From Hyphomicrobiaceae bacterium (GTDB lineage: Bacteria > Pseudomonadota > Alphaproteobacteria > Rhizobiales > Hyphomicrobiaceae): a stretch of DNA of 64,000 bases. The notes under the pieces are model-generated. The model was not told the origin of the DNA, did no database searches, and saw only the letters and a program-made list of their open reading frames with translations. The stretch covers positions 1-64,000 of the forward strand of contig JANYHF010000014.1 of assembly GCA_025359185.1 (NCBI GenBank), given 5' to 3'. Shown here one piece after another: positions 13,376-54,089 of the stretch. Within the stretch, counting starts at the first letter, position 1; every line of letters begins with the position of its first letter. The position numbers and the translations under genes were made by a program.

Positions 13376-15181
13376 ATGGCCGCCCAGGACAAGCAGCGCT
13401 CCAGCGCCATCCAATGGGCGGGGCTTGGCGTCGAGGCCATCCGCGCGGGCCGGTTCGCCGACGGGCGCGATCATCTCGTGCGGGCGCTACGGCTTGATAA
13501 GGTGAACCCGTTCTATCACTTTGATCTGGCGCTCGCCCACCACGGCCTCGGCGACATCGAGGAGGCCGCGCGCGAACTTTGCACCGCCATCCGCCTGAAA
13601 CCCGATTTCGATGACGCCTCGCGGCGGCTGGGGATGCTGTGCGCCCGCTACCTGTTCGAAAGCGATGGTGTGCTCGATGGCTTTGCCTTGCGCACCGCGA
13701 TGCAGGCGCCGCGGGCTTCCCAACAGGCGCTGGCCGAGGCGGCGATCAGCGAGCTGGCACGGCATGGCAGTTTGGCTCAGCCGTTGGCCGCCATCGCGCG
13801 TGAGGGTGCCGATGCCACGGCGCGCAACCTGCTCACCAAGCGCACTGATGATGCGCTGCGGGACGATACGCTGCTGGCCGCGCTTGAATGGGGCGTCAAC
13901 AAGAACCTGACCGTCGAGCGCATGCTGACGGCCTTGCGCCGCGCAGTTCTTCTCGATGTTCCTCCCGGGCGTTTCGAGGATAAGGCGCTGCAAGCCTTCA
14001 CCATCGCGCTTGCCAAGCACTGCGTCGCTAATGAGCATGTGTGGGCCGAGACGCCGGAGGAAACGGCGGCGATTGAGCACCTGAAGCCATTGCTGACAGG
14101 TTTGCCATTGGGTGAATTCCAGGCCACCAGGGCTGTTTTGCTCATCGCGCTTTACAGGCCGCTAAGTTCGTTTTTGCCTGCGGGTCAGACAAGCGCCGTC
14201 AAGCTGCGGGCCTTGCGCGATTGGGCGGCCGAATCGCTGAAAAACGAACAGGCCGAGATCGCGCTGGCCAAGACGCTGACGGCCGGTCCGCTGCCGGGCG
14301 ATGCAACGGGCAAGCGCGTGGCGCAGCAATACGAAAAAGCGCCGTATCCGCGCTGGACGAGCCTGACGATGCCCAACACGGGATCGCTGAAACTGGCGCT
14401 GCGGCAATTCTTTTCCCCCGACCGCCTTACCTTCCTCGAGCGCGAGTTCAACGTGCTGATCGCAGGCTGCGGCACCGGCCGGCAGGCGATCCAGTCGGCG
14501 CTGGGCTATGGCGAAAACGCGGCTGTTCTGGGCCTCGACATCTCCGCCCGCAGCCTCGCCTATGCCACCCGCATGGCGCAGGGTTTTGGCATTCCGCGCC
14601 TCGCCTTCGAGCAGGCCGATCTGCTGGCACCCGATGCAAAACAACGAACATTCGACATCATCGAATGCGTTGGCGTGCTGCATCACATGGCCGATCCGCT
14701 GGCGGGCTGGCGGTCGCTGCTTGGCCGGCTCAAGCCGCATGGCCTGATGATGCTGGGGCTGTATTCGCCCGTATCGAGAAAGGTGCTGTCGCAGTTGCGC
14801 CAGGAGCCGGCCTTCCCCGGCGCCGGCTGCACCGATGCCGCCGCGCGCGCTTACCGCCAAAGCCTGCTGGCCAGAACGGCGGCGGAACCGGGCGGCGATT
14901 TGGCCATCTCGAAAGACGCCTACACGCTGAGCGAGTTTCGCGACCTTGCCTTGCATGAGCAGGAGCATCCGTTGACACTGGCCGAAATCGACGCATTTAT
15001 GTCGGCGGAAAAGTTGGCATTTCGCGGTTTCATCCTGCCCGGCCCGTCTTTCGACAGTTTCCACAAGCAGTTCCCCGAGCCTGCGTCCCTGCTCCGCCTC
15101 GCCGACTGGGCCGCCCACGAGGCCGAACACCCCAATCTGTTTGACGGCATGTACTGCTTCTGGTGTGAGCGCGTTGTATGA
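13376..15181 (+). CDS. TPR protein fused to SAM-dependent methyltransferase
   Basis: The N-terminal region (about residues 8-90) contains TPR-like helices (YHFDLALAHHGLGDIEEAAR). A long helical linker leads to a class I methyltransferase domain from about residue 320. The SAM-binding loop is LIAGCGTGRQ near residues 360-370, followed by LGLDIS and IIECVGVLHHMADPLAG. Similar TPR-methyltransferase proteins are common in Alphaproteobacteria but their substrates are mostly unknown. It appears monocistronic; the next gene starts 124 bases later. Confidence 0.82.
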   Translation: MAAQDKQRSSAIQWAGLGVEAIRAGRFADGRDHLVRALRLDKVNPFYHFDLALAHHGLGDIEEAARELCTAIRLKPDFDDASRRLGMLCARYLFESDGVLDGFALRTAMQAPRASQQALAEAAISELARHGSLAQPLAAIAREGADATARNLLTKRTDDALRDDTLLAALEWGVNKNLTVERMLTALRRAVLLDVPPGRFEDKALQAFTIALAKHCVANEHVWAETPEETAAIEHLKPLLTGLPLGEFQATRAVLLIALYRPLSSFLPAGQTSAVKLRALRDWAAESLKNEQAEIALAKTLTAGPLPGDATGKRVAQQYEKAPYPRWTSLTMPNTGSLKLALRQFFSPDRLTFLEREFNVLIAGCGTGRQAIQSALGYGENAAVLGLDISARSLAYATRMAQGFGIPRLAFEQADLLAPDAKQRTFDIIECVGVLHHMADPLAGWRSLLGRLKPHGLMMLGLYSPVSRKVLSQLRQEPAFPGAGCTDAAARAYRQSLLARTAAEPGGDLAISKDAYTLSEFRDLALHEQEHPLTLAEIDAFMSAEKLAFRGFILPGPSFDSFHKQFPEPASLLRLADWAAHEAEHPNLFDGMYCFWCERVV

Positions 15182-15305
15182 TCGTCCTTGCTCCGGCCAT
15201 GAGCCCCTGGCATGGAAGGCAGGTGCGGCGGTCGTTCACTCGATCGTCGGCCATGACCTTGTGCGCGTGCCAAAGCGAGCGACTGCGACGCCGGATTGAC
15301 CGCCC

Positions 15306-16049
15306 ATGTCTGCCCTCATTGCCATTCTTGCGCTGATTGCCGCCGCCTATTTTGGCTTGCGGTACTATCGCGGCATGGACCTGGAAAAACGCGCCGTGTT
15401 GATCCGCAAGGCGGTGGGTGTGCTTGCCCTTGGCGTTGCCCTGGCCCTGCTCGCCACGGGCCGCATTCTGTTCGCCATCCCGTTCGGCTTTTTTGGCTAT
15501 TTCGTCCTATGGCGTCCGCAAGGCTGGTTTTCCCGGACACAAACCTTCACCAGCAGCGCGCGCCTCGCCAGTGTGCGCACAGCCTTTCTGCAGATGACGC
15601 TCGATCAGGGCTCCGGGGCGCTGTCGGGCCACGTGCTGGCGGGCACCTACACTGGCCGAGACCTGTCTTCGTTGTCGCGCACCGAGCTCGCGCAACTCTG
15701 GCGCGAGTGCCGCGCTGGCGAGCCGCAGAGCCGGCAGTTGCTGGAAGCCTATCTCGACCGCAGCTGGCCGGAATGGCGGGCCGACATGCCGCGGCTTGGT
15801 GGCGGCATGGGCGGCGGCACGGGTCCGGGCAATGGTGCTGGACAAAGTGCGCCCGAACGCGGCCGCCCGCCGATGACACGCGCCGAGGCCTTTGAGGTGC
15901 TCGGCCTGGCCAACAGTGCAGACCTCGAAGAGATCAAAGCCGCGCACCGCAATCTGATGAAACGGTTGCATCCCGATCAAGGCGGCACGAATTATCTCGC
16001 CGCCAAGATCAACGAGGCCAAAGAGGTGTTGCTTGGCAAGCGGGCGTGA
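15306..16049 (+). CDS. membrane protein with C-terminal J domain
   Basis: The product of 247 residues has an N-terminal membrane helix (about residues 2-18), a second hydrophobic pair around 35-65, a helical linker, a Gly-rich hinge near 170 and a short J-like domain at the end. The J domain contains the essential HPD motif (KRLHPDQGG), so it can in principle stimulate a DnaK-type ATPase. The arrangement resembles Tim14/Pam18-like bacterial J proteins. Its partner and client are unknown. Confidence 0.83.
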   Translation: MSALIAILALIAAAYFGLRYYRGMDLEKRAVLIRKAVGVLALGVALALLATGRILFAIPFGFFGYFVLWRPQGWFSRTQTFTSSARLASVRTAFLQMTLDQGSGALSGHVLAGTYTGRDLSSLSRTELAQLWRECRAGEPQSRQLLEAYLDRSWPEWRADMPRLGGGMGGGTGPGNGAGQSAPERGRPPMTRAEAFEVLGLANSADLEEIKAAHRNLMKRLHPDQGGTNYLAAKINEAKEVLLGKRA

Positions 16050-37821: not shown

Positions 37822-40701
37822 ATGCAACCCGTTGTCAACCTCAGCCCGCCGCCCGCCGACGAGGTGAAGGCGACGACGTGCTATATGTGTGCGTGCCGGT
37901 GCGGGATTCATGTCCACATCAAGGGCGGCGCGATCACCTACATCGAGGGCAATCGCGATCATCCGGTGAACAAGGGCGTGATCTGCGGCAAGGGCGCGGC
38001 GGGGATCATGCAGCATTTTTCGCCCGCGCGGCTCAGGAACCCTTTGCTCAGGACAGGCGAGCGCGGAAAGGGCCAGTTCAAGGAAATTTCATGGGACGAG
38101 GCGTTGAGCCTCGCGAGCACATGGCTCGGCGATGTGCGGCGAACCGACCCCAAAAAACTTGCATTCTTCACTGGCCGCGACCAAAGCCAAGCGCTCACTG
38201 GCTGGTGGGCGAGCCAGTTCGGTACGCCGAATTTCGCCGCCCATGGCGGGTTCTGTTCGGTGAACATGGCGGCGGCCGGCCTCTATACCATGGGCGGCTC
38301 ATTCTGGGAGTTCGGCGAACCCGATTGGGAGCGCACGAAATATTTCCTCTTGTTCGGAGTCGCCGAGGATCACGCCTCGAACCCGATCAAGATCGCGCTT
38401 GGGAAACTGAAAGCGCGTGGCGTCAAGATCGTGTCGGTGAACCCGGTGCGGACCGGCTACAACGCCATCGCCGACGAGTGGCTGGGCATCAAGCCGGGCA
38501 CGGACGGGTTGTTCGTGGCGGCGCTCATCCAAGAACTTTTCCGCACACAGCGTATCGATGTGGAGTCACTCTGCCGCTATACGAATGCTGCCTGGCTGGT
38601 GGTGCAGGCGCCGGGAACGGCCGGGGACGGATTGTTTGCGCGCGACGCGGCCGGAGCGCCGTTGGTCATCGATCGCAGGACCGGGCTCCCACGCCCAGTG
38701 CCGCTCTTTGCGGCACGGGGAGAGGGTGGGGGTGAGGGGCGTCCACAAGCTCCGGCCCTTCACCCCCACCCTCTCCCCGCGAAGGACGGGGAGAATGAGT
38801 TCCTGCCTGCGCTCAGCGGCGACTATGTGCTTGCCGATGGCCGCCAAGCGACGCCCTCGTTCGCGCTGATGGCTGAGCGCTACATGGGTGCCGAGTATGC
38901 TCCCGAGCGCGCAGAGGCCGAGACCGGCATTCCCGCTGCCACCATCCGGCGCATCGCGGCCGAACTTGCGACGGCGGCCTTCGACCAGGCCATCGCGCTG
39001 GATCAGCCGTGGACGGATTGGACGGGCACCCGGCATGAGACGATGACCGGCCGCCCAGTGTCGATGCACGCCATGCGCGGCGTGTCCGCCCATTCCAACG
39101 GCTTTCATACCTGCCGCCTGATCCATATCCTGCAGATCCTGCTGGGTTCCATCGATTGCCCCGGTGGCTTCCGCTACAAGCCGCCCTACCCGAAGTCCGT
39201 GCCGCCGGCCATCCGCCCCATGGGCAAAGCGGGGAAAACTGCTCCGAACACGCCGCTGGGCGGGTCGCCGCTCGGCTTTCCGATGGGGCCGGAGGATTTG
39301 CTCATTGGTCCCAACGGCGAGCCGCAGCGCGTTGACAAAGCCTATTCGTGGGAGGCGCCGCTGGCTGCGCACGGCCTCATGCATATGGTCATCACCAATG
39401 CGGCGACGGCTGATCCGTACCCGGTGGATGTGCTGTTCCTCTATATGGCCAATATGAGCTGGAATTCGTCGATGAATGTTCCCGCCGTGCTGCAGCATCT
39501 GACAGCGAAGGACGAAACAGGCGCATACAAAATCCCAAAGATCATCTATTCCGATGCCTATGCGTCGGAGATGGTGGCCTATGCCGATCTGATCCTTCCC
39601 GATACGACCTATCTCGAACGCTGGGATTGTATCTCCCTCCTTGATCGCCCGATTTCCGATCCCGATGGCCCCGCCGATGCCATCCGCCAACCGGTGGTGA
39701 AGCCCGACCGCAATGTGCGGCCGTTCCAGGAGGTGCTGCTGGATCTCGGCGCGCGGCTGGGGCTTCCGGGCTTTGTGGATATGGCGGGCAAGCCGAAATA
39801 TCCGGGCGGGTATGCGGACTATATAGTCAACCACGAGCGCGCACCGGGCATCGGGCCGCTGGCAGGCTGGCGCGGCACCGACGGCAAGAGCTTTGGCCGC
39901 GGCGCGGTGAACCCGCAGCAGCTGGAGCGTTACATCGAGAACGGCGCGTTTTTCGCGACGCAGCTGCCGCCCGAGGCGCGGTTTTTCAAACATGCGAACA
40001 AGGACTATCTGGAGTGGGCCACGTCCGTCGGCTTCATCGGCGCGCCCGATCCGGTGATCCTGCAACTCTATTGCGAGCCCTTGCAGCGGTTCCGTCTGGC
40101 GGCGCAAGGGCATGGGGGCGTGAAGCCGCCGGAGCAGCATCGTAAGCGGATTGCGACCTACTTTGATCCGTTGCCGTTTTGGTATCCAGCGGCAGGTGAT
40201 GCAGCGCCTAAAGAGGATCTGTACCCGTTATGCGCTATCACCCAGCGCCCCATGCATATGTACCATTCCTGGGGCAGTCAAAATGCCTGGTTGCGCCAGA
40301 TTACCAATGAGAACCGGCTGTTCATCCATCACGACCTCGCCCGCAAGCATGACCTCAAGGACGACGACTGGGTCTGGCTCACCAGCGCCACTGGCCGGAT
40401 CAAGTGCCAGGTGCGCGCGATGGACGGCGTCAATCCGCACACCGTGTGGACGTGGAACGCGATCGGCAAGCGCTCGGGCACTTGGGGGCTTGATCCGCAA
40501 GCACCCGAATCGCAGAAGAGCTTCCTGCTCAACCATCTGATCCCGGATCTTCTTCCAGAAGGCGCGGGCGGCTACCGCTATTCGAATTCCGATCCGGTGA
40601 CGGGCCAAGCCGCGTGGTATGACCTCAAAGTGCGGATCGAGAAATGCGTGGGAGATGCGGCGCGGGAAATTTCGCCGAAATTCGCGACGATCACACCATG
40701 A
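37822..40701 (+). CDS. soeA: molybdopterin oxidoreductase, SoeA-like sulfite dehydrogenase catalytic subunit
   Basis: This DMSO-reductase-family enzyme of 959 residues binds bis-MGD and one [4Fe-4S] cluster through Cys20, Cys23, Cys27 and Cys55. Cys145 (GGFCSVN) is a candidate Mo ligand, as in polysulfide and thiosulfate reductases. There is no Tat signal, so it faces the cytoplasm, which agrees with SoeA. A ferredoxin-type subunit and a DmsC-type anchor follow, giving the SoeABC layout for oxidising sulfite to sulfate; other DMSO-reductase-like roles cannot be excluded. Oddity: 38716-38779 is a palindromic repeat that codes in frame for a low-complexity insert at about residues 299-319. Confidence 0.82.
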   Translation: MQPVVNLSPPPADEVKATTCYMCACRCGIHVHIKGGAITYIEGNRDHPVNKGVICGKGAAGIMQHFSPARLRNPLLRTGERGKGQFKEISWDEALSLASTWLGDVRRTDPKKLAFFTGRDQSQALTGWWASQFGTPNFAAHGGFCSVNMAAAGLYTMGGSFWEFGEPDWERTKYFLLFGVAEDHASNPIKIALGKLKARGVKIVSVNPVRTGYNAIADEWLGIKPGTDGLFVAALIQELFRTQRIDVESLCRYTNAAWLVVQAPGTAGDGLFARDAAGAPLVIDRRTGLPRPVPLFAARGEGGGEGRPQAPALHPHPLPAKDGENEFLPALSGDYVLADGRQATPSFALMAERYMGAEYAPERAEAETGIPAATIRRIAAELATAAFDQAIALDQPWTDWTGTRHETMTGRPVSMHAMRGVSAHSNGFHTCRLIHILQILLGSIDCPGGFRYKPPYPKSVPPAIRPMGKAGKTAPNTPLGGSPLGFPMGPEDLLIGPNGEPQRVDKAYSWEAPLAAHGLMHMVITNAATADPYPVDVLFLYMANMSWNSSMNVPAVLQHLTAKDETGAYKIPKIIYSDAYASEMVAYADLILPDTTYLERWDCISLLDRPISDPDGPADAIRQPVVKPDRNVRPFQEVLLDLGARLGLPGFVDMAGKPKYPGGYADYIVNHERAPGIGPLAGWRGTDGKSFGRGAVNPQQLERYIENGAFFATQLPPEARFFKHANKDYLEWATSVGFIGAPDPVILQLYCEPLQRFRLAAQGHGGVKPPEQHRKRIATYFDPLPFWYPAAGDAAPKEDLYPLCAITQRPMHMYHSWGSQNAWLRQITNENRLFIHHDLARKHDLKDDDWVWLTSATGRIKCQVRAMDGVNPHTVWTWNAIGKRSGTWGLDPQAPESQKSFLLNHLIPDLLPEGAGGYRYSNSDPVTGQAAWYDLKVRIEKCVGDAAREISPKFATITP
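38716..38779. repeat. GGGGAG palindrome inside soeA
   Basis: Perfect 20-base arms (38716-38735 and 38760-38779, cores GGGGAGAGGGTGGGGG and CCCCCACCCTCTCCCC) flank a 24-base centre. This is the shape of a REP-like intergenic element, yet the reading frame stays open and it encodes a Gly-, Pro- and His-rich insert. Related short palindromes occur at 49839-49860 and 52301-52320. Confidence 0.85.
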
Positions 40702-41444
40702 CCACCCTCCCCACGCCACCAACCAAAAAACTCGGCCTCGTCATCGATCTCGACATCTGCGTCGGCTGCCAGGCTTGCGCGACGTCGTGCAAGGAGTGGA
40801 ACTCGCAAGGGCTTACCTCCGCGCCGCTGACCGATGAGGACCCCTACGGCGATGACCCGCACGGCACCTGGCTCAACCGTGTGCACACGTATGAAGTGGG
40901 CACAGGCCCCGCCGCCCGCACCGTGCATTTCCCGCGCTCGTGCCTGCATTGCGAGGACGCGCCCTGCGTCACCGTCTGCCCGACCGGCGCCAGCTACAAG
41001 CGCGCCGAGGACGGCATTGTGCTGGTCAATCCGGACACCTGCATCGGCTGCAAGCTCTGCTCCTGGGCCTGCCCCTATGGCGCGCGCGAATATGACTACA
41101 CCGACGGCGTCATGAAGAAATGCACGCTCTGCGTCGACCGCATCTACAACGAGAACCTTGCCGAAGTGGACCGCGTCCCGGCCTGCGTGCGTGCCTGCCC
41201 GACAGGCGCGCGGGCGTTTGGCGATTTGGGTGATCCAGGCAGCTCGGTGTCGAAAAACGTGGCAGCGCGCGGTGGCTACGACCTCATGCCGGAAATGGGG
41301 TGCAGGCCCACCAACAAGTACCTGCCGCCCCGCGAAAAGCGCGCCACGGCCGATCCCGAGCCGATGCCCTCGCTGGCCGAAATGGCCGCGGGCAAAGCCG
41401 GCCTTGAGAAATTGTTCGCCTGGGTGGACAAAGTGTTGTCGTAA
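40698..41444 (+). CDS. soeB: four-cluster ferredoxin subunit, SoeB-like
   Basis: The 248-residue electron-transfer subunit has four Cys groups for four [4Fe-4S] clusters: DICVGCQACATSCKEWN, SCLHCEDAPCVTVCPTG, TCIGCKLCSWACPYG, and CTLCVDRI with PACVRACPTGA. It would carry electrons from the molybdenum subunit to the membrane anchor. Its start overlaps the soeA stop in ATGA, so the two are made together. An upstream in-frame start at 40644 would lie within soeA and is unlikely. Confidence 0.88.
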   Translation: MTTLPTPPTKKLGLVIDLDICVGCQACATSCKEWNSQGLTSAPLTDEDPYGDDPHGTWLNRVHTYEVGTGPAARTVHFPRSCLHCEDAPCVTVCPTGASYKRAEDGIVLVNPDTCIGCKLCSWACPYGAREYDYTDGVMKKCTLCVDRIYNENLAEVDRVPACVRACPTGARAFGDLGDPGSSVSKNVAARGGYDLMPEMGCRPTNKYLPPREKRATADPEPMPSLAEMAAGKAGLEKLFAWVDKVLS

Positions 41445-41480
41445 AGGTCAGGGTCAGGCCGCAAGAGAGCCCTCTACTTT

Positions 41481-41517
41481 CCCTAATCCCTAATCCCTAC
41501 CCTCTAATCCCTCTTTC
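41481..41517 (+). repeat. telomere-like CCCTAAT array, copy 2
   Basis: CCCTAATCCCTAATCCCTAC followed by CCTCTAATCCCTCTTTC lies between soeB and soeC. It is the reverse-complement counterpart of 34660-34690, including part of the flanks (TACTTT before, CCCTCTT and CTACT after). The C-tracts could form an i-motif and the other strand a G-quadruplex. Confidence 0.75.
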
Positions 41518-41555
41518 TACTTCCTGTTCTCTCCTGTTCTCGTCGAGCCGATCGT

Positions 41556-42500
41556 ATGCACCCAGCCTATTCCGTCATCTTCTTCACTGCCGCGTCTGGC
41601 GCGGGCTATGGCTTACTCGCCTTACTGAGCATCGGTGTGGCGACCGGCTGGCTGCCGCCCGACCGCACGCTGGGGCTCACCGGTCTCGGCCTCGCCCTCA
41701 CCCTCATCACCGCAGGCCTCCTTTCCTCCACCGCCCATCTTGGCCGCCCCTCACGGGCGTGGCGCGCGTTCTCGCAATGGCGCTCGTCGTGGCTGTCGCG
41801 CGAAGGCGTGCTGGCGGTCGCCACCTACGTGCCTGCGGGCATCCTCGGACTCGGCTGGGCCATCCTTGGACGGACGGATGGCGTGTTTGCGCTGGCCGCT
41901 TGGCTGACGGTGCCGCTTGCGATCGCGACGGTGATCGCCACCGGCATGATTTATCAGAGCTTGGCGACCATCCGGCAGTGGCACCAGCGTTTGACCACGC
42001 CGGTCTACTTGCTGCTGGCGCTGGCGACCGGCGGGCTGCTGCTGATCGCCATCCTGCGCCTGACCACCGGGCAAGCTGGCAAGATCGTGCTGGTGGTGCA
42101 GGCGTTCCTGATTCTCGCGGCACTGATCAAATGGCTGTACTGGCGCGCCATCGACCGCGCGCCCGTTCTGGCGACACCTGAAACTGCCACCGGTCTCGGC
42201 CGCTTCGGCACGGTGCGTCAGCTGGAGGCCCCGCATTCGCAAGCCAATTATGTGATGCGAGAGATGGGCTACTCAATCGGCCGCAAGCACGCGCTCACGC
42301 TACGGTACGCTGTGCTTTGGCTGCTGTTCGGGCTGCCGTGTCTGCTGATCGCGCAAGCCCTGTGGCAGGGCACGTTCGCCACCATCGCCGTGATCGCTGC
42401 TGTGCTGTTGGCCGCCTTGGGCGTAGTTATCGAACGCTGGCTGTTCTTTGCCGAGGCCGAGCATGTGGTGATGACGTATTATGGGGCCGGTACAAAGTAG
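41556..42500 (+). CDS. soeC: DmsC/NrfD-type membrane anchor, SoeC-like
   Basis: The product of 314 residues has about eight membrane helices and the DmsC-family opening MHPAYSVIFFTAASGAGYGL and LGRPSRAWRAFSQWRSSWLS segment. It would pass electrons from SoeB to the quinone pool. The gap after soeB is 111 bases and holds the telomere-like array. The sequence resembles SoeC subunits more than E. coli DmsC, which supports the sulfite-oxidising assignment. Confidence 0.82.
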   Translation: MHPAYSVIFFTAASGAGYGLLALLSIGVATGWLPPDRTLGLTGLGLALTLITAGLLSSTAHLGRPSRAWRAFSQWRSSWLSREGVLAVATYVPAGILGLGWAILGRTDGVFALAAWLTVPLAIATVIATGMIYQSLATIRQWHQRLTTPVYLLLALATGGLLLIAILRLTTGQAGKIVLVVQAFLILAALIKWLYWRAIDRAPVLATPETATGLGRFGTVRQLEAPHSQANYVMREMGYSIGRKHALTLRYAVLWLLFGLPCLLIAQALWQGTFATIAVIAAVLLAALGVVIERWLFFAEAEHVVMTYYGAGTK

Positions 42501-48530: not shown

Positions 48531-49805
48531 ATGGTGAGCGAAGCCAAAGCCGAGTTTCTGGAGCGCTCGAAAGAGTTCTGGAACCCAGGCAAAACGCAAT
48601 TCTGGCAGGACCAGGACGTCGATCTCGTCATCGACAAGCGCGAAGGCTATCACCTCTTCGACATGGACGGCCGCAGGCTGATCGACGTGCATCTGAATGG
48701 CGGCACCTACAACCTTGGCCATCGCAATGCCGAGCTGATCGCGGTGATGACGGCTGCGGCGGCGCGCTTCGACATGGGCAACCATCATTTTCCGGCCTTG
48801 GCGCGCACGGCTCTGGCCGAGACCATCGCGGCCTGTATGCCGGGTGATCTGCAGTACACGATCTATGGGGCCGGCGGGGCGGAAGCGATTGATATTGCTC
48901 TGAAAACTGCACGTAACGCGACCAAGAAAAAGAAGATCGTTTCGATTGTGAAGGCCTATCACGGGCATACCGGGCTGGCGGTTAAGACCGGCGATGCGCG
49001 GTTCTCAAAGCTGTTCTTGTCTGAGGACACGGCGGGCGAATTCATCCAGGTGCCGTTCAACGATTTGAACGCCATGGAAGACGCGCTGAAGCGGCGCGAT
49101 GTGGCCGCCGTGATCATGGAGACGATCCCCGCCACCTACGGTTTTCCGATGCCGAAGGAGGGCTATCTCCCCGGCGTCAAGCGCCTCACCGAGCGTTATG
49201 ATGCTCTTTACATCGCCGACGAAGTGCAGACCGGTTTCATGCGCACGGGCGCGATGTGGGGCGTCAACAAGTACGGCATCGAGCCCGACATCATGGTGCT
49301 GGGCAAGGCGCTGACCGGCGGCATCTATCCGATTTCCGCCGCAGTGGTTTCGAAGCGCCACGCCGGCTGGCTGACCGAGGACGGCTTCGGCCACATCTCC
49401 ACGTCCGGCGGTGCCGAGATCGGCTGCTGCGTGGCGATGAAGGTGCTCGAAATCACCCAGCGGCCAGAGGTAGCGTCCATGGTGCGCTACATCGCTGATT
49501 TCGTGCGCGCGGGGTTGAACCGCATCCAGGCGCAATATCCCGACTGGTTCATCGGCATCCGCCAGCATGGCGTTGTCATGGGGCTGGAGTTCAACCACCC
49601 CGAAGGCGCCAAGCCGGTGATGAAGCATCTCTACAAAAACGGCGTGTGGGCCATTTTCTCGACCCTCGACCCGCGCGTCCTCCAGTTCAAGCCCGGCATT
49701 CTGATGACGCAAGCCTCCTGCGAGGACCTCTTGCGGCGCGTCGACATCGCCATCGGCGACGCGCGCACCGAAGTCATAGGCTCGGGTTCGCGGAGGGCTG
49801 GGTGA
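48531..49805 (+). CDS. class III PLP aminotransferase-like enzyme of the BMC locus
   Basis: This fold-type I, class III PLP enzyme of 424 residues has the PLP Lys in LGKALTGGIYP, IADEVQTGFMRTG as the cofactor Asp motif, and GAGGAEAIDIALKTAR near residue 110. Class III members include transaminases of amines and phospho-lyases of ethanolamine-phosphate type; both yield an aldehyde. It is first in the run that leads to a CoA-acylating aldehyde dehydrogenase and shell genes, so it probably makes the aldehyde. It has no clear encapsulation helix, although its N-terminus (MVSEAKAEFLERSKEFW) is amphipathic. Confidence 0.85.
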   Translation: MVSEAKAEFLERSKEFWNPGKTQFWQDQDVDLVIDKREGYHLFDMDGRRLIDVHLNGGTYNLGHRNAELIAVMTAAAARFDMGNHHFPALARTALAETIAACMPGDLQYTIYGAGGAEAIDIALKTARNATKKKKIVSIVKAYHGHTGLAVKTGDARFSKLFLSEDTAGEFIQVPFNDLNAMEDALKRRDVAAVIMETIPATYGFPMPKEGYLPGVKRLTERYDALYIADEVQTGFMRTGAMWGVNKYGIEPDIMVLGKALTGGIYPISAAVVSKRHAGWLTEDGFGHISTSGGAEIGCCVAMKVLEITQRPEVASMVRYIADFVRAGLNRIQAQYPDWFIGIRQHGVVMGLEFNHPEGAKPVMKHLYKNGVWAIFSTLDPRVLQFKPGILMTQASCEDLLRRVDIAIGDARTEVIGSGSRRAG

Positions 49806-49926: not shown

Positions 49927-51513
49927 ATGCCCTCCCCGCTCGAAGCCCTGATCGACCTATCCGGCACGCCTGCCGCGCTGACAGCGCAGGCCGACACCAT
50001 GCTGGAGCGCGCGCGATGGGCCTCGGAAGTCTATCAGCGCTATGACCGTACGCGTGTCATGCGGATCGCCGAGGCGGTCGCCAACGCCGCGCATGAAAAG
50101 GCCGAAGCCTATGCTGAGTGGGCCGTGCGCGAAACGGGCTTTGGCGTCGTCGCGCACAAGAAGATCAAGAACGAGCTGACCGCGCGGCCGTTCCTCGATT
50201 ACTACCGCGACTGGGATTTCGTGAACCCGCGCACCGACCCGAACACCGGTGTCGTCGAAGTACCGAAACCCGCTGGCGTCATTTTCGCGCTGATCCCATC
50301 GACCAATCCCATCGCGACCATCAATTTCAAGGCGATCTGTGCGATCCTGACACGCAACGCCATTGTCATGTCGCCCCATCCCGCCGCGCGCGAATGCTGC
50401 GTGGACGCCGCAAGGATGCTCGCCAAAGTCGCCGAAGCGGCGGGTGCGCCCGATGGCATCATCCAAGTTGTGGAGAAGCCCGCCATTCCGTTGATCGACC
50501 AGTTCATGAAATCCGACAAGACCGATGTGATCCTGGCCACCGGCGGCAACGCCATGGTGCGATCAGCCTATTCGTCGTCGAACCCGGCGCTGGGCGTCGG
50601 CCCCGGCAATGCCCCGTGCTATGTCGATAACTCGGCGGATCTGAAGCACGCGGCCTATTGCATTTCCGAAAGTAAGAGTTTTGATAACTCCGTGCTCTGC
50701 ACAAATGAGAGTGTTCTGATTGCTCATGCCGCGATAGCCGAGGCTCTAGCGCGTGAGCTGGAGAAGACGGGCTGCCACATCTGCAACGAGGACGAAACCG
50801 CACAGCTGCGGACATACCTGTTCCATGACCGTGGCTTCAACATCGAGGCTATCGGCCGCGAAGCCACCTGGATCGCCGCCAAGGCGGGCTTGCGCGTGCC
50901 GCCCAAAACCAAGGTGCTGATCACACCGATTTCGATGATCGGCGTGGACGAGCCGCTGTCGAAGGAAAAGCTTTGCCCGGTGCTGGCGATGGTCTCGGCC
51001 ACCAGCCGTTCGCAGGCGATTGCCACAGCGCGCGCGGTGTTGCGTTTCCAAGGCGCGGGTCATTCGTCGGCGATCCACTGCAAGGACGCGCAGACGATTT
51101 TGGATTTTGCCGCCGCCGTCGAAAGCTACCGCGTGGTGGTGAACGCCCCCTGCAGCCAGGGCGCGGCGGGCTTCGGCACGAATTTGGCACCGACCTTTAC
51201 GGTGGGTACGGGATTTTTCGGGCGGTCCTCCATCGGCGAAAACCTTGGGCCCCAGCATCTGGTACATTGGACCCGGGTCGCGTTCGGCGCGGAATCGCGG
51301 GACCTCGCGCGTGGCGTGAGTTCGTCAGGGTACTCTCTGCCCGGGCCGTTGCCTGAAGCGCCCTCGGACGGTGTGCCCGGCAAGAGCGCCATGTCCTTGG
51401 GCCAGATGTCGTCCGCTGGCGGATCACTCCCTGCCGACCCCAACTATGCGGCGCTCCGCGAAGAAATCCGCCGCGTCATCGCCGAAGAACTGCGCGAGGC
51501 GCTGAAGGGATGA
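49927..51513 (+). CDS. CoA-acylating aldehyde dehydrogenase with encapsulation helix
   Basis: This 528-residue dehydrogenase is closest in motifs to the acylating domain of AdhE and to PduP/EutE. NPIATINFKAICAILTRNAI, PALGVGPGNAPCYVD and SKSFDNSVLCTNES (catalytic Cys) are all present. It should convert an aldehyde, NAD+ and CoA to acyl-CoA. After the core ends at about residue 455, a Gly/Ser/Pro-rich linker leads to ALREEIRRVIAEELREALKG, an amphipathic helix of the kind that targets enzymes into BMC shells. A ribosome site AAAGGG precedes the start. Confidence 0.92.
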   Translation: MPSPLEALIDLSGTPAALTAQADTMLERARWASEVYQRYDRTRVMRIAEAVANAAHEKAEAYAEWAVRETGFGVVAHKKIKNELTARPFLDYYRDWDFVNPRTDPNTGVVEVPKPAGVIFALIPSTNPIATINFKAICAILTRNAIVMSPHPAARECCVDAARMLAKVAEAAGAPDGIIQVVEKPAIPLIDQFMKSDKTDVILATGGNAMVRSAYSSSNPALGVGPGNAPCYVDNSADLKHAAYCISESKSFDNSVLCTNESVLIAHAAIAEALARELEKTGCHICNEDETAQLRTYLFHDRGFNIEAIGREATWIAAKAGLRVPPKTKVLITPISMIGVDEPLSKEKLCPVLAMVSATSRSQAIATARAVLRFQGAGHSSAIHCKDAQTILDFAAAVESYRVVVNAPCSQGAAGFGTNLAPTFTVGTGFFGRSSIGENLGPQHLVHWTRVAFGAESRDLARGVSSSGYSLPGPLPEAPSDGVPGKSAMSLGQMSSAGGSLPADPNYAALREEIRRVIAEELREALKG

Positions 51514-51656: not shown

Positions 51657-52268
51657 ATGGCCGAGCTGCGCTCATTCATTTTTCTCGACCGGCTGCAGCC
51701 GCAAACGCTGTGCGCGCTCGCGACCTGGATCAAGGGGTCGTTGCCGCGCGCCGATGTGGCAGCCCAGATCATCGAGGTGGCACCGGGCCTCGATATTGAG
51801 GGGCTCACGGACATTGCGCTGAAGAACTCCGATGCCAGGGCCGGCATTCTGATGGTGGAGCGCACTTACGGGTATCTCGAATTTCACCATCGCTCGACAT
51901 CCGTCGTGCAGGCGGGCGCGCAGTCTGTGCTCGATGCGATCGGGGCCAAAGCCGAGCAGGCGATGAAGCCGCAGATTCTCGCGGCCAAGGTGATGACGCG
52001 GATCGATCATCAGCACGCGTTTCTCATCAATCGCAACAAGGCGGGCTCGATGGTGCTGGGTGGCCAGTCTTTGTACGTGCTGGAAATGCAGCCTGCGTCT
52101 TATGCCATCCTGGCCTGCAACGAGGCCGAGAAAGCCGCCAACATCACGGTCGTCGATTACAAGATGATGGGTGCCACGGGCCGCGTGTATCTGGCCGGCG
52201 ACGAAGCCGAAATCCGTAACGCCCGCGAGGCGGCAGAAACCGCACTGACCAACATGGGAGCGCGGTGA
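51657..52268 (+). CDS. BMC-T shell protein 1
   Basis: This tandem-domain shell protein of 203 residues would form pseudohexameric trimers. The two BMC folds are about residues 1-95 (LRSFIFLDRLQPQ to EFHHRSTSVVQAG) and 105-203 (SMVLGGQSLYVLEM, then ACNEAEKAANITVVDYKMMG). It is a paralogue of the protein at 53457-54089 (shared LQPQ, IIEVAP, GILxVER, NEAEK). BMC-T trimers often hold the larger pores for cofactors or bulky substrates. Confidence 0.9.
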   Translation: MAELRSFIFLDRLQPQTLCALATWIKGSLPRADVAAQIIEVAPGLDIEGLTDIALKNSDARAGILMVERTYGYLEFHHRSTSVVQAGAQSVLDAIGAKAEQAMKPQILAAKVMTRIDHQHAFLINRNKAGSMVLGGQSLYVLEMQPASYAILACNEAEKAANITVVDYKMMGATGRVYLAGDEAEIRNAREAAETALTNMGAR

Positions 52269-52347: not shown

Positions 52348-52818
52348 ATGATGGACACCTCGCTCCGTTCGATGATTCGCGAGGTCCTCTCTGAGGAGAT
52401 CGGCAAGGCGAAGGCGCAAGGGTTGCTGCCGGGGCAGACCGGGCTCGCGCCCAAGCCAAAGGTGCGCGATGAGATGATCAGCCTACGAACCGATAGCGAC
52501 CTTGCTGCGTTCATCGCGCGGCTGGCCGAGATCCTCAAGGACGGCCGCTCGCGCGAGGAGATCGAACGCGGGCGCTGGGTGTTCCGGCTTGTATCATCCG
52601 CCAGCGGAGCACCGGCCGCGCCGCAGTCGTTCTCCGCATCGCCCGCCGCGCCTGCCCCCTCCACTGCCCGCGTGGAAAAAGGCATCATCGGCGAGAAGCA
52701 GATCGAGAGTCTCCCCGAGGGCACGAAAATTCTCGCCGCCGGAAAATCCGTCCGCTTCACGCCGCTGGCCAAGGATCGCCTGCGCCTGCGCGGCATCACC
52801 ATCGAGAGGACCAGCTGA
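52348..52818 (+). CDS. unknown BMC-associated protein with N-terminal encapsulation-like helix
   Basis: I do not recognise this 156-residue protein. Residues 3-20 (DTSLRSMIREVLSEEIGK) form an amphipathic helix with the same pattern as the aldehyde dehydrogenase tail (LR..IR.V..EE). A helical middle (LAAFIARLAEILKDGRSREE) and a Pro/Ala/Ser linker follow. The last 45 residues end FTPLAKDRLRLRGITIE, reminiscent of the TP-A-D-R-GI-I ends of some BMC-associated proteins. It could be an internal scaffold or enzyme adaptor. Its stop overlaps the BMC-P start by one base. ATG 52351 is an equal start choice. Confidence 0.8.
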   Translation: MMDTSLRSMIREVLSEEIGKAKAQGLLPGQTGLAPKPKVRDEMISLRTDSDLAAFIARLAEILKDGRSREEIERGRWVFRLVSSASGAPAAPQSFSASPAAPAPSTARVEKGIIGEKQIESLPEGTKILAAGKSVRFTPLAKDRLRLRGITIERTS

Positions 52819-53060
52819 TGCTGAAGGGACGTGTACGGGGCAGATTCTGGTCGAGCAAGCGGGTGCCGAGCCTACCGCAAGGGCCGCTGTTGGAAATCGA
52901 GATGGAAGGGGGTCAAAGGTTGATTGCCCTCGACCCGCTCGGCTGCGCCGATGGCGAACTCGTGCTCGTCACTACCGGCTCCGTCGCTGCACGCTTTTTC
53001 GACAAGGTTAATGCATCCGTGGACGCTGTCATCGTCGCTTCGCTCGACGAGAAAGGTTAA
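52818..53060 (+). CDS. BMC-P pentameric vertex protein (EutN/CcmL family)
   Basis: The 80-residue protein closes the twelve vertices of BMC shells. It matches the EutN/CcmL pattern MLKGRVRGRFWSSKRVPSLP, LIALDPLGCADGELVLVTTG and VDAVIVASLDEKG. Being the only BMC-P in the locus it is probably essential for a closed shell. It overlaps the preceding gene by one base. Confidence 0.93.
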   Translation: MLKGRVRGRFWSSKRVPSLPQGPLLEIEMEGGQRLIALDPLGCADGELVLVTTGSVAARFFDKVNASVDAVIVASLDEKG

Positions 53061-53097: not shown

Positions 53098-53139
53098 ACC
53101 TGAATCGCCCGGAATGACACCTGAATCGACGGGAATGAA
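53098..53139 (+). repeat. two tandem 21-base repeats upstream of BMC-H
   Basis: ACCTGAATCGCCCGGAATGA(C) is followed directly by ACCTGAATCGACGGGAATGA(A), 18 of 21 positions alike. A weaker half-copy (GGGAATCGCCG) lies at 53069-53079. It could be a regulator site or the remnant of a mobile-element end. Confidence 0.6.
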
Positions 53140-53164
53140 CGCCAACACACACCGGAGACCACCC

Positions 53165-53449
53165 ATGTCCAACCAAGCCATCGGAATGATCGAGACCAAA
53201 GGTTACGTCGCTGCACTCGCGGCTGCCGACGCCATGGTGAAAGCCGCCAACGTCACCATCGTCACCCGTGAGCAGGTCGGCGACGGCCTCGTCGCCATCG
53301 TCATCCGCGGCGATGTCGGCGCCGTGAAAGCCGCCGTGGAAGCGGGCGCCGAGACGGCCAACCAGGTCGGCGAACTCGTCTCTACGCACGTCATCCCACG
53401 CCCCCATCCGGACCTCGCCAACAGCTTCACTTCGATCAAGCAGAGCTAG
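53165..53449 (+). CDS. BMC-H hexameric shell protein
   Basis: The 94-residue single-domain shell protein has the canonical start ([20 protein letters not shown]) and the pore region near [20 protein letters not shown]. It forms hexamers that tile the facets. It is the only BMC-H in the locus, so facets would be built from it and the two BMC-T proteins. The start at 53165 follows GGAG and matches the family N-terminus. Confidence 0.96.
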
Positions 53450-53456
53450 TTCCGGC

Positions 53457-54089
53457 ATGACTGACCTCCGCGTCTATCTGCCGATCGATGATCTGCAACC
53501 TCAGTTCACGGCCTATCTCAACTCGCCGCAGCGGGCGCGCGGATATCCGGCCGTGGTGGGCGATTACAGCCTCATTATCGAAGTTGCGCCTGCCCTTGCC
53601 ATCCACCGGATTGTCGACCTCGCGCTGAAGGCCGAGCCGGACCTTGAGCCCGGGATTCTCTACGTAGAACGCCAGTTCGGCGTGCTGGAACTGCACGCCA
53701 AGGACAAGGCCTTGGTGGAGCGGGCGGGGGCAGCAATCCTCAAGGGCACGGGGGCAAATGCGGGCGATCAGCTGTCGCCGCAAACGCTGTATGCAGATAT
53801 TATCGAGAAGGTGGCCGACCAGCACGCGATCATCCTCAATCGCTCGCGCGAAGCCTCGATGATTTTGCCCGGCCAATCGCTGCTGGTTTACGAGATGGTG
53901 CCCGCGCTGTTCGCGGCCATCGCCAGTAACGAGGCGGAGAAAGTTGCGCCCGATGTGACGCTGGTCGATGTGCAGATGATCGGCGCGTCGGGCCGGGTGT
54001 TCATGTCGGGCCTCACCTCGGATTTGAAGCGCGCCAAAGAGAAGATCGACGAATGCCTCGCGGGCATAAAGGGGCGAAAGAGCAACTGA
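53457..54089 (+). CDS. BMC-T shell protein 2
   Basis: This tandem BMC protein of 210 residues is paralogous to 51657-52268. The first domain runs LRVYLPIDDLQPQFTAYL to EPGILYVERQFGVLELHAKD, the second has SMILPGQSLLVYEM, SNEAEKVAPDVTLVDVQMIG and GASGRVFMSG. It starts seven bases after the BMC-H stop and closes the operon. Two different BMC-T proteins in so small a locus suggest either mixed trimers or stacked double-disc pores. Confidence 0.9.
   Translation: MTDLRVYLPIDDLQPQFTAYLNSPQRARGYPAVVGDYSLIIEVAPALAIHRIVDLALKAEPDLEPGILYVERQFGVLELHAKDKALVERAGAAILKGTGANAGDQLSPQTLYADIIEKVADQHAIILNRSREASMILPGQSLLVYEMVPALFAAIASNEAEKVAPDVTLVDVQMIGASGRVFMSGLTSDLKRAKEKIDECLAGIKGRKSN

Follow-up and report, generated by a model that had tools for sequence, protein, structure and literature searches.

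The window analysed here, a stretch of DNA of 64,000 nucleotides, carries a BMC operon in which a gene for a 156-aa protein lies among the shell genes, and the locus raises the question of what this protein does there. A first-pass annotation had noticed that it shares a helix of the encapsulation type with the aldehyde dehydrogenase of the same operon. The attachment of enzymes to the shell in metabolosomes has been partly worked out for the Pdu (PduM, PduB) and Eut (EutQ) systems only (PMC12108088, PMC12487888).

The BMC operon and its relatives

The operon comprises the following genes:

48531..49805, forward strand: class III aminotransferase, 424 aa (Pfam PF00202)
49927..51513, forward strand: aldehyde dehydrogenase of the CoA-acylating type, 528 aa (Pfam Aldedh; NCBIfam, below the equivalog cut-offs)
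51657..52268, forward strand: BMC-T shell protein, CcmP-like (PF00936; NF053796, below its cut-off)
52348..52818, forward strand: candidate core-shell adaptor, 156 aa (open reading frame and translation; conserved slot; TGATG overlap with BMC-P)
52818..53060, forward strand: BMC-P (EutN/CcmL) vertex protein (PF03319)
53114..53449, forward strand: BMC-H shell protein (PF00936)
53457..54089, forward strand: second BMC-T shell protein, CcmP-like (NF053796 at E 1.4e-49, below its cut-off; no Pfam match)

The gene order is aminotransferase, aldehyde dehydrogenase, BMC-T, 156-aa protein, BMC-P, BMC-H, BMC-T. Upstream of the operon, at 37822-42500, are genes that by eye we take to encode a molybdopterin oxidoreductase, a 4Fe-4S subunit and a membrane subunit.

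Besides the source genome, four of 100 relatives' genomes contain a match to the 156-aa protein at an E-value of 3e-7 or better, and further matches were found in three MAG contigs and in 10 further genomes of 385 drawn from the class. The alignment has 18 rows including the window; four of them come from one genus and three from another, and since several are close kin, they do not represent 18 independent cases. In each of the 18 aligned loci the gene's slot is the same, with the first BMC-T on one side and BMC-P on the other. An ortholog in another class (G783, L046) lies in the order dehydrogenase, BMC-T, ortholog, BMC-P, BMC-H, BMC-T. The second BMC-T was detected at E ≤ 1e-20 in 11 of the 385 class genomes, and the same 11 have the gene for the 156-aa protein. 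Another search gave 44 matched genomes, three of them with matches below 1e-5 (G000, G136 and G783), each in a BMC operon. Two of the 41 weaker matches were inspected (G142 and G206), and by eye both fall within the gene for translation factor IF-2; eight weak matches from the search of the relatives' genomes (L008-L015, E 1.9e-5 to 9.3e-3) were dropped, as at E ≤ 1 they match neither the profile of the family nor that of the module. A plasmid search with the 156-aa protein yielded no match. The search for homologues that the first-pass annotation had proposed thus led to orthologs in the same slot of other BMC operons, beyond the source genome.

The stop codon of the 156-aa protein gene overlaps the start of BMC-P (TGATG), and in the relatives these two genes are likewise overlapping or adjacent. 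Such an arrangement would suit a protein that serves BMC-P, being translationally coupled to its gene, rather than the cargo. Overlaps are common in operons, though, and this role would leave the cargo-tag helix described below unexplained; we consider it very improbable.

The RMM loci take their name from Mycobacterium and Rhodococcus jostii (PMC4207490), and 1-amino-2-propanol or aminoacetone has been proposed as their substrate (PMC6620236). On plasmid pRHL2 of R. jostii RHA1, the genes run dehydrogenase, BMC-T, hypothetical protein, EutN, BMC-H, BMC-T, aminotransferase, followed by a second BMC-T, hypothetical protein, EutN and BMC-H, with a phosphotransferase gene on the other strand in the operon region. 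The window locus has the RMM/Aut set (acylating dehydrogenase, aminotransferase and BMC-T, BMC-P and BMC-H genes), with the core order as in R. jostii. The R. jostii hypothetical protein (WP_011600239.1), present twice owing to a 1686-bp repeat, occupies the same slot, matches the 18-row profile at E 1.1e-28 and shares 25% identity with the window protein. Because it is an ortholog, the window operon is, judging by its genes, RMM-like; it differs from the RMM of RHA1 in its aminotransferase, which is only 23% identical to the RHA1 enzyme.

The source genome has an APH-type phosphotransferase, a further component of RMM/Aut metabolosomes and a 64% relative of the kinase of one related locus (L020), on another contig. 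PF01636 was found beside the operon in all four candidates scanned (L018, L020, L021 and L022), and SDR genes, the type to which the 1-amino-2-propanol dehydrogenase of RMM/Aut metabolosomes belongs, lie near the operons of two relatives (L020 and L021). On contig C6 of the source genome an APH kinase gene directly follows a gene for a PF00724 flavin oxidoreductase (L107 6624-8744, 8744-9733), a pair that may point to an amine substrate.

Terminal helices of the protein and the dehydrogenase

The two helices under comparison are the following:

52354..52416, forward strand: N-terminal helix of the 156-aa protein, residues 3-23, of the encapsulation-peptide type, with the motif at residues 6-17 (motif, predicted helix, shuffles, orthologs)
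51451..51504, forward strand: putative C-terminal tag helix of the dehydrogenase, residues 509-526, an extension beyond the catalytic match, which ends near residue 456

The segment SLRSMIREVLSEEIGK, previously placed at about residues 3-20, is where it was said to be, its exact span being residues 5-20. This segment and residues 509-526 of the 528-aa dehydrogenase (ALREEIRRVIAEELREAL) share the pattern LR-x2-IR-x-V-x2-EE, at residues 6-17 and 510-521, respectively. Across the six frames of the window (127,996 residues), the strict form of the pattern (LR..IR.V..EE) occurs only at the head of the protein and the tail of the dehydrogenase, once each, and one looser pattern of our own writing again matched only these two places in the window. 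Aligned without gaps under BLOSUM62, the two segments score at most 39, a value also reached by 2 of 5000 plain shuffles and by 13 of 5000 in which the hydrophobic pattern was preserved. Neither the N-termini nor the C-termini of 496 other ORFs (mechanical calls of at least 200 aa, spurious ones among them) include one that scores as high.

Similar helices at the head of the protein and the tail of the dehydrogenase recur in 18 related operons. Among the 19 loci compared (the window, 17 relatives and R. jostii), the strict motif is present in one head and one tail, both of them the window's, and judging from these sequences the likeness is one of pattern, not of letters. Within a locus, head and tail are more alike than plain shuffles at p ≤ 0.05 in 16 of the 19 loci, and more alike than pattern-keeping shuffles in 13 (400 shuffles each); for the R. 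jostii pair, the likeness is not significant against either plain (0.095) or pattern-keeping (0.12) shuffles. The earlier claim of one shared pattern, N-terminal in one protein and C-terminal in the other, is thus borne out by the uniqueness of the motif in the window, by the shuffles and by the recurrence in relatives.

The N-terminal helix is amphipathic, ranking in the top 1.6% of 2047 14-mers from eight window proteins, and the highest hydrophobic moments range from 0.30 to 0.73 for the heads and from 0.49 to 0.81 for the dehydrogenase tails. Its Arg-bearing pattern is kept in the orthologs, with R11 invariant in 18 rows. EutE of Escherichia coli K-12 starts with MNQQDIEQVVKAVLLKM and EutC with MDQKQIEEIVRSVMASM, and both resemble the head of the 156-aa protein. 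The marks of an encapsulation peptide, a terminal amphipathic helix followed by a low-confidence stretch, are present (position, moment, AlphaFold2 model), and from that adjoining stretch we infer that the helix is not buried. What had been called an encapsulation-type helix therefore has the position, the amphipathic character, the following low-confidence stretch and the conserved Arg pattern of one, and its targeting role is a prediction. The AlphaFold2 model of the dehydrogenase (pLDDT 45) was not relied on. By eye, no tag-like helix was seen at either end of the window aminotransferase (48531-49805).

On RHA1 pRHL2, 1686 bp (L080 10229-11914) are repeated without mismatch at 14122-15807, 3893 bp downstream, and the repeat covers four shell-operon genes. 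Its first 97 nt are the end of the dehydrogenase gene, stop codon included, and in the second copy they place that enzyme's last 31 residues, with the tag, in frame on the aminotransferase. This duplication supports the dehydrogenase tail as a portable tag, although the repeat might also be an assembly fault. If the likeness of head and tail were mere convergence of ordinary amphipathic helices with no targeting role, one could point to the 6 of 19 loci in which more than 5% of the pattern-keeping shuffles are as good. The shuffle and background counts for the window pair, the recurrence in relatives and the tail's in-frame move onto an R. jostii aminotransferase all argue against convergence, to which we give very little credence.

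The C-terminal module

An AlphaFold2 model of the 156-aa protein based on four sequences is of moderate quality (mean pLDDT 67.4, pTM 0.30). It predicts a helix at residues 3-23, a low-confidence stretch at 27-37, a strand-helix-helix-strand element at 40-82, a low-confidence linker at 85-104 and a strand-helix-strand-helix-strand arrangement at 106-154. The parts that follow the N-terminal helix are:

52465..52593, forward strand: predicted middle strand-helix-helix-strand element, residues 40-82 (AlphaFold2; conserved G75 and F79)
52600..52659, forward strand: linker, residues 85-104, predicted to be disordered (pLDDT below 50)
52663..52815, forward strand: C-terminal module, residues 106-156 (alignment, hhalign with shuffles, NCBIfam)

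In three orthologs from one genus (L034, L035 and L042), a SnoaL-like domain (SnoaL_2) separates the middle element from the module, as would be expected of a linker able to accommodate an insert.

Profile comparison of the module with the C-terminus of PduM (its last ~45 residues) gave an hhalign score of 42.3 (E 1.9e-9), whereas the best of 200 column shuffles scored 15.8 (0 of 200 as good); the PduM profile consisted of 13 of the 14 sequences found via Pfam PF15953, the partial L122 being left out. Profiles of four sequences each gave scores of 29.6 for the EutQ N-terminus (best of 300 shuffles 17.5, reversed profile 9.6) and 33.6 for the EutT N-terminus (best of 300 shuffles 17.9, reversed profile 9.0). 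As single sequences compared with the 18-row profile, E. coli EutT matched at only E 3.4 and EutQ was not matched. On these comparisons we regard the module as a homologue of the PduM C-terminus and, with weaker support, of the EutQ and EutT N-termini. Homology to PduM outside the module was not supported, as 116 of 200 shuffles were as good for the middle region; in the profile comparison of the N-terminal helix with PduM heads, 10 of 200 shuffles were as good.

When the 18 rows were scanned against 18,950 NCBIfam models, 13 matched eut_hyp (TIGR02536, best 2.4e-5), six matched PduM (TIGR04493, best 1.8e-5), four another PduM model and two EutQ, the matched stretches placing the module against the C-terminal end of eut_hyp or PduM or the N-terminal end of EutQ. 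All of these matches are below the family cut-offs, the best TIGR04493 score being 24.7 bits against a curated cut-off of 50. The window row had no eut_hyp, PduM or EutQ match among the 18,950 models, and neither had four of the other 17 rows (L019, L020 and L021 at E ≤ 0.5, and L038). Searched alone, the window protein had no Pfam match and no PduM match in NCBIfam. The first-pass annotation's statement that the rest of the protein matches no family thus holds for the window sequence by itself in Pfam and NCBIfam and fails for its family, which hhalign and the NCBIfam matches of the other rows connect with PduM.

The best NCBIfam match of the window protein, EncD (E 0.14), was taken as chance, as were weak family-scan matches to MutL (0.011), PopZ (0.052), a regulator (0.058) and ThcA (0.1); the scan gave SnoaL-related matches as well. 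Searching the PDB by sequence gave nothing credible for the 156-aa protein, an 8-row profile, PduM or the module, the best match of the 8-row profile, a designed cytochrome trimer (5.5e-4, three weak matches), being judged not credible. The best Foldseek match had an E-value of 0.016 but a TM of 0.20 and was not used, and the Cas1 N-terminal domains that came top for residues 101-156 in VIA-align (Z 6.1) are within the range of models without a clear match.

The module also opens the malate dehydrogenase in the BMC operon of Methylibium (E 6e-7; L082 9603-10901). In Rhodococcus oxybenzonivorans it is found (E 2e-6) on a separate 128-aa protein encoded just before the malate dehydrogenase (L081 9615-10001). 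In both cases the module is N-terminal and the operon is of another BMC type, with EutJ. E. coli EutQ (L023 19303-20004) matches the start of an NCBIfam EutA model with its residues 6-92 (E 1.6e-9), a hint that some EutA proteins, too, may begin with the module.

Could the 156-aa protein be a passenger, a small catalytic or ligand-binding protein that the helix brings in? Encapsulation peptides are found mostly on enzymes; EutQ, EutT and the BMC malate dehydrogenase are fusions of the module with an enzyme, and three orthologs carry the SnoaL-like domain. Against this, no enzyme family was found for the window protein in Pfam or NCBIfam, and the 11 positions that never vary across the 18 rows (R11, G75, F79, G112, E116, T138, P139, L140, A141, D143 and R154) form, in our judgement, no recognised catalytic set. 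We regard a passenger role as improbable. Of the two proposals made at the outset, a new cargo enzyme or a scaffold, the absence of an enzyme family and the module common to PduM and EutQ favour the scaffold.

A candidate link between core and shell

Because a cargo-tag helix is found at one end and a module of core-shell linkers at the other, the 156-aa protein probably joins enzymes to the shell. The helix likeness with its recurrence, the homology of the module, the order of the parts and the fixed operon slot are read from the sequences themselves. From these, we infer the two binding events and the partner of each end. The N-terminal helix would join the cargo condensate, with the C-terminal tag of the dehydrogenase as its likely partner, the middle element and the flexible linker would space it from the C-terminal module, and the module would dock on the inner face of the shell.

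The assignment of the helix to the cargo and of the module to the shell combines reports on EutQ, on PduM and on peptide co-assembly. In EutQ, deletions show that H1/H2 (residues 9-41) follow the shell and H3/H4 (62-99) the cargo, and residues 1-20 of EutC bind EutQ with a Kd of 6.35 uM (PMC12487888). PduM has an N-terminal core-targeting sequence, residues 1-23 of which follow the core, and without PduM core and shell partly separate (PMC12108088). Cargoes are reported to co-assemble via encapsulation-type peptides (PMC12339742). The opposite orientation, in which the module binds the enzyme core and the N-terminal helix is a classical shell-binding peptide that occupies the groove between BMC-H tiles, agrees with the support for binding of the PduL peptide between tessellating PduA tiles (PMC11157265) and with the presence of the same module in E. 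coli EutT, a cargo enzyme. It is at odds with the behaviour of EutQ 9-41, which make up most of the module and go with the shell, not the cargo, and with that of PduM 1-23, and appears unlikely. We therefore consider it reasonably probable that the 156-aa protein serves an RMM/Aut-like metabolosome as a core-shell adaptor without enzymatic activity, with its N-terminal helix directed to the cargo and its C-terminal module to the shell.

As such an adaptor, the 156-aa protein most likely has its functional counterparts in the linking parts of PduM and EutQ. PduM (TIGR04493, PF15953) also has the homologous C-terminal module, is encoded in a shell operon and, at about 163 aa among the relatives, is close in size; both may share an N-terminal encapsulation-type helix, which in the window protein is of that type by its motif. 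It belongs to a different operon, and we did not assign the window protein to PduM because its family scores below the PduM cut-off and the middle regions are not detectably homologous. The N-terminal region of EutQ (residues 1-99) contains a homologous module and, according to PMC12487888, a helical cargo-binding part; the order is reversed, with the module first and H3/H4 as the cargo-binding part. EutQ also has a cupin, and since the window protein has none, it was not assigned to EutQ either: cupin PF06249 gave no Pfam match in the window protein and one weak match in eight rows (E 0.064). The eut_hyp family (TIGR02536), an ethanolamine operon protein listed as of unknown function, matches the module with its C-terminal end in 13 of 18 rows; it has 207 positions, the remainder of which is unmatched, scores are far below the cut-off, and the comparison was made via the model only.

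It is a serious possibility, although one that we would not quite call probable, that a single small mobile docking module provides a general fastening of core to shell in metabolosomes, paired in either order with a compartment-specific cargo-tag helix. Its members would perhaps include the end of PduM, eut_hyp and the RMM protein and the start of EutQ, EutT and the BMC malate dehydrogenase. We found no published report linking PduM, EutQ and the RMM protein through this module in the literature searched, most subscription papers being outside its scope. If the proposal is true, PduM, which has been described as having no relatives, is one member of this set. The shared module would give the orphan PduM relatives, predict which protein serves as linker in compartments of the RMM type and offer a shell-side handle besides encapsulation peptides.
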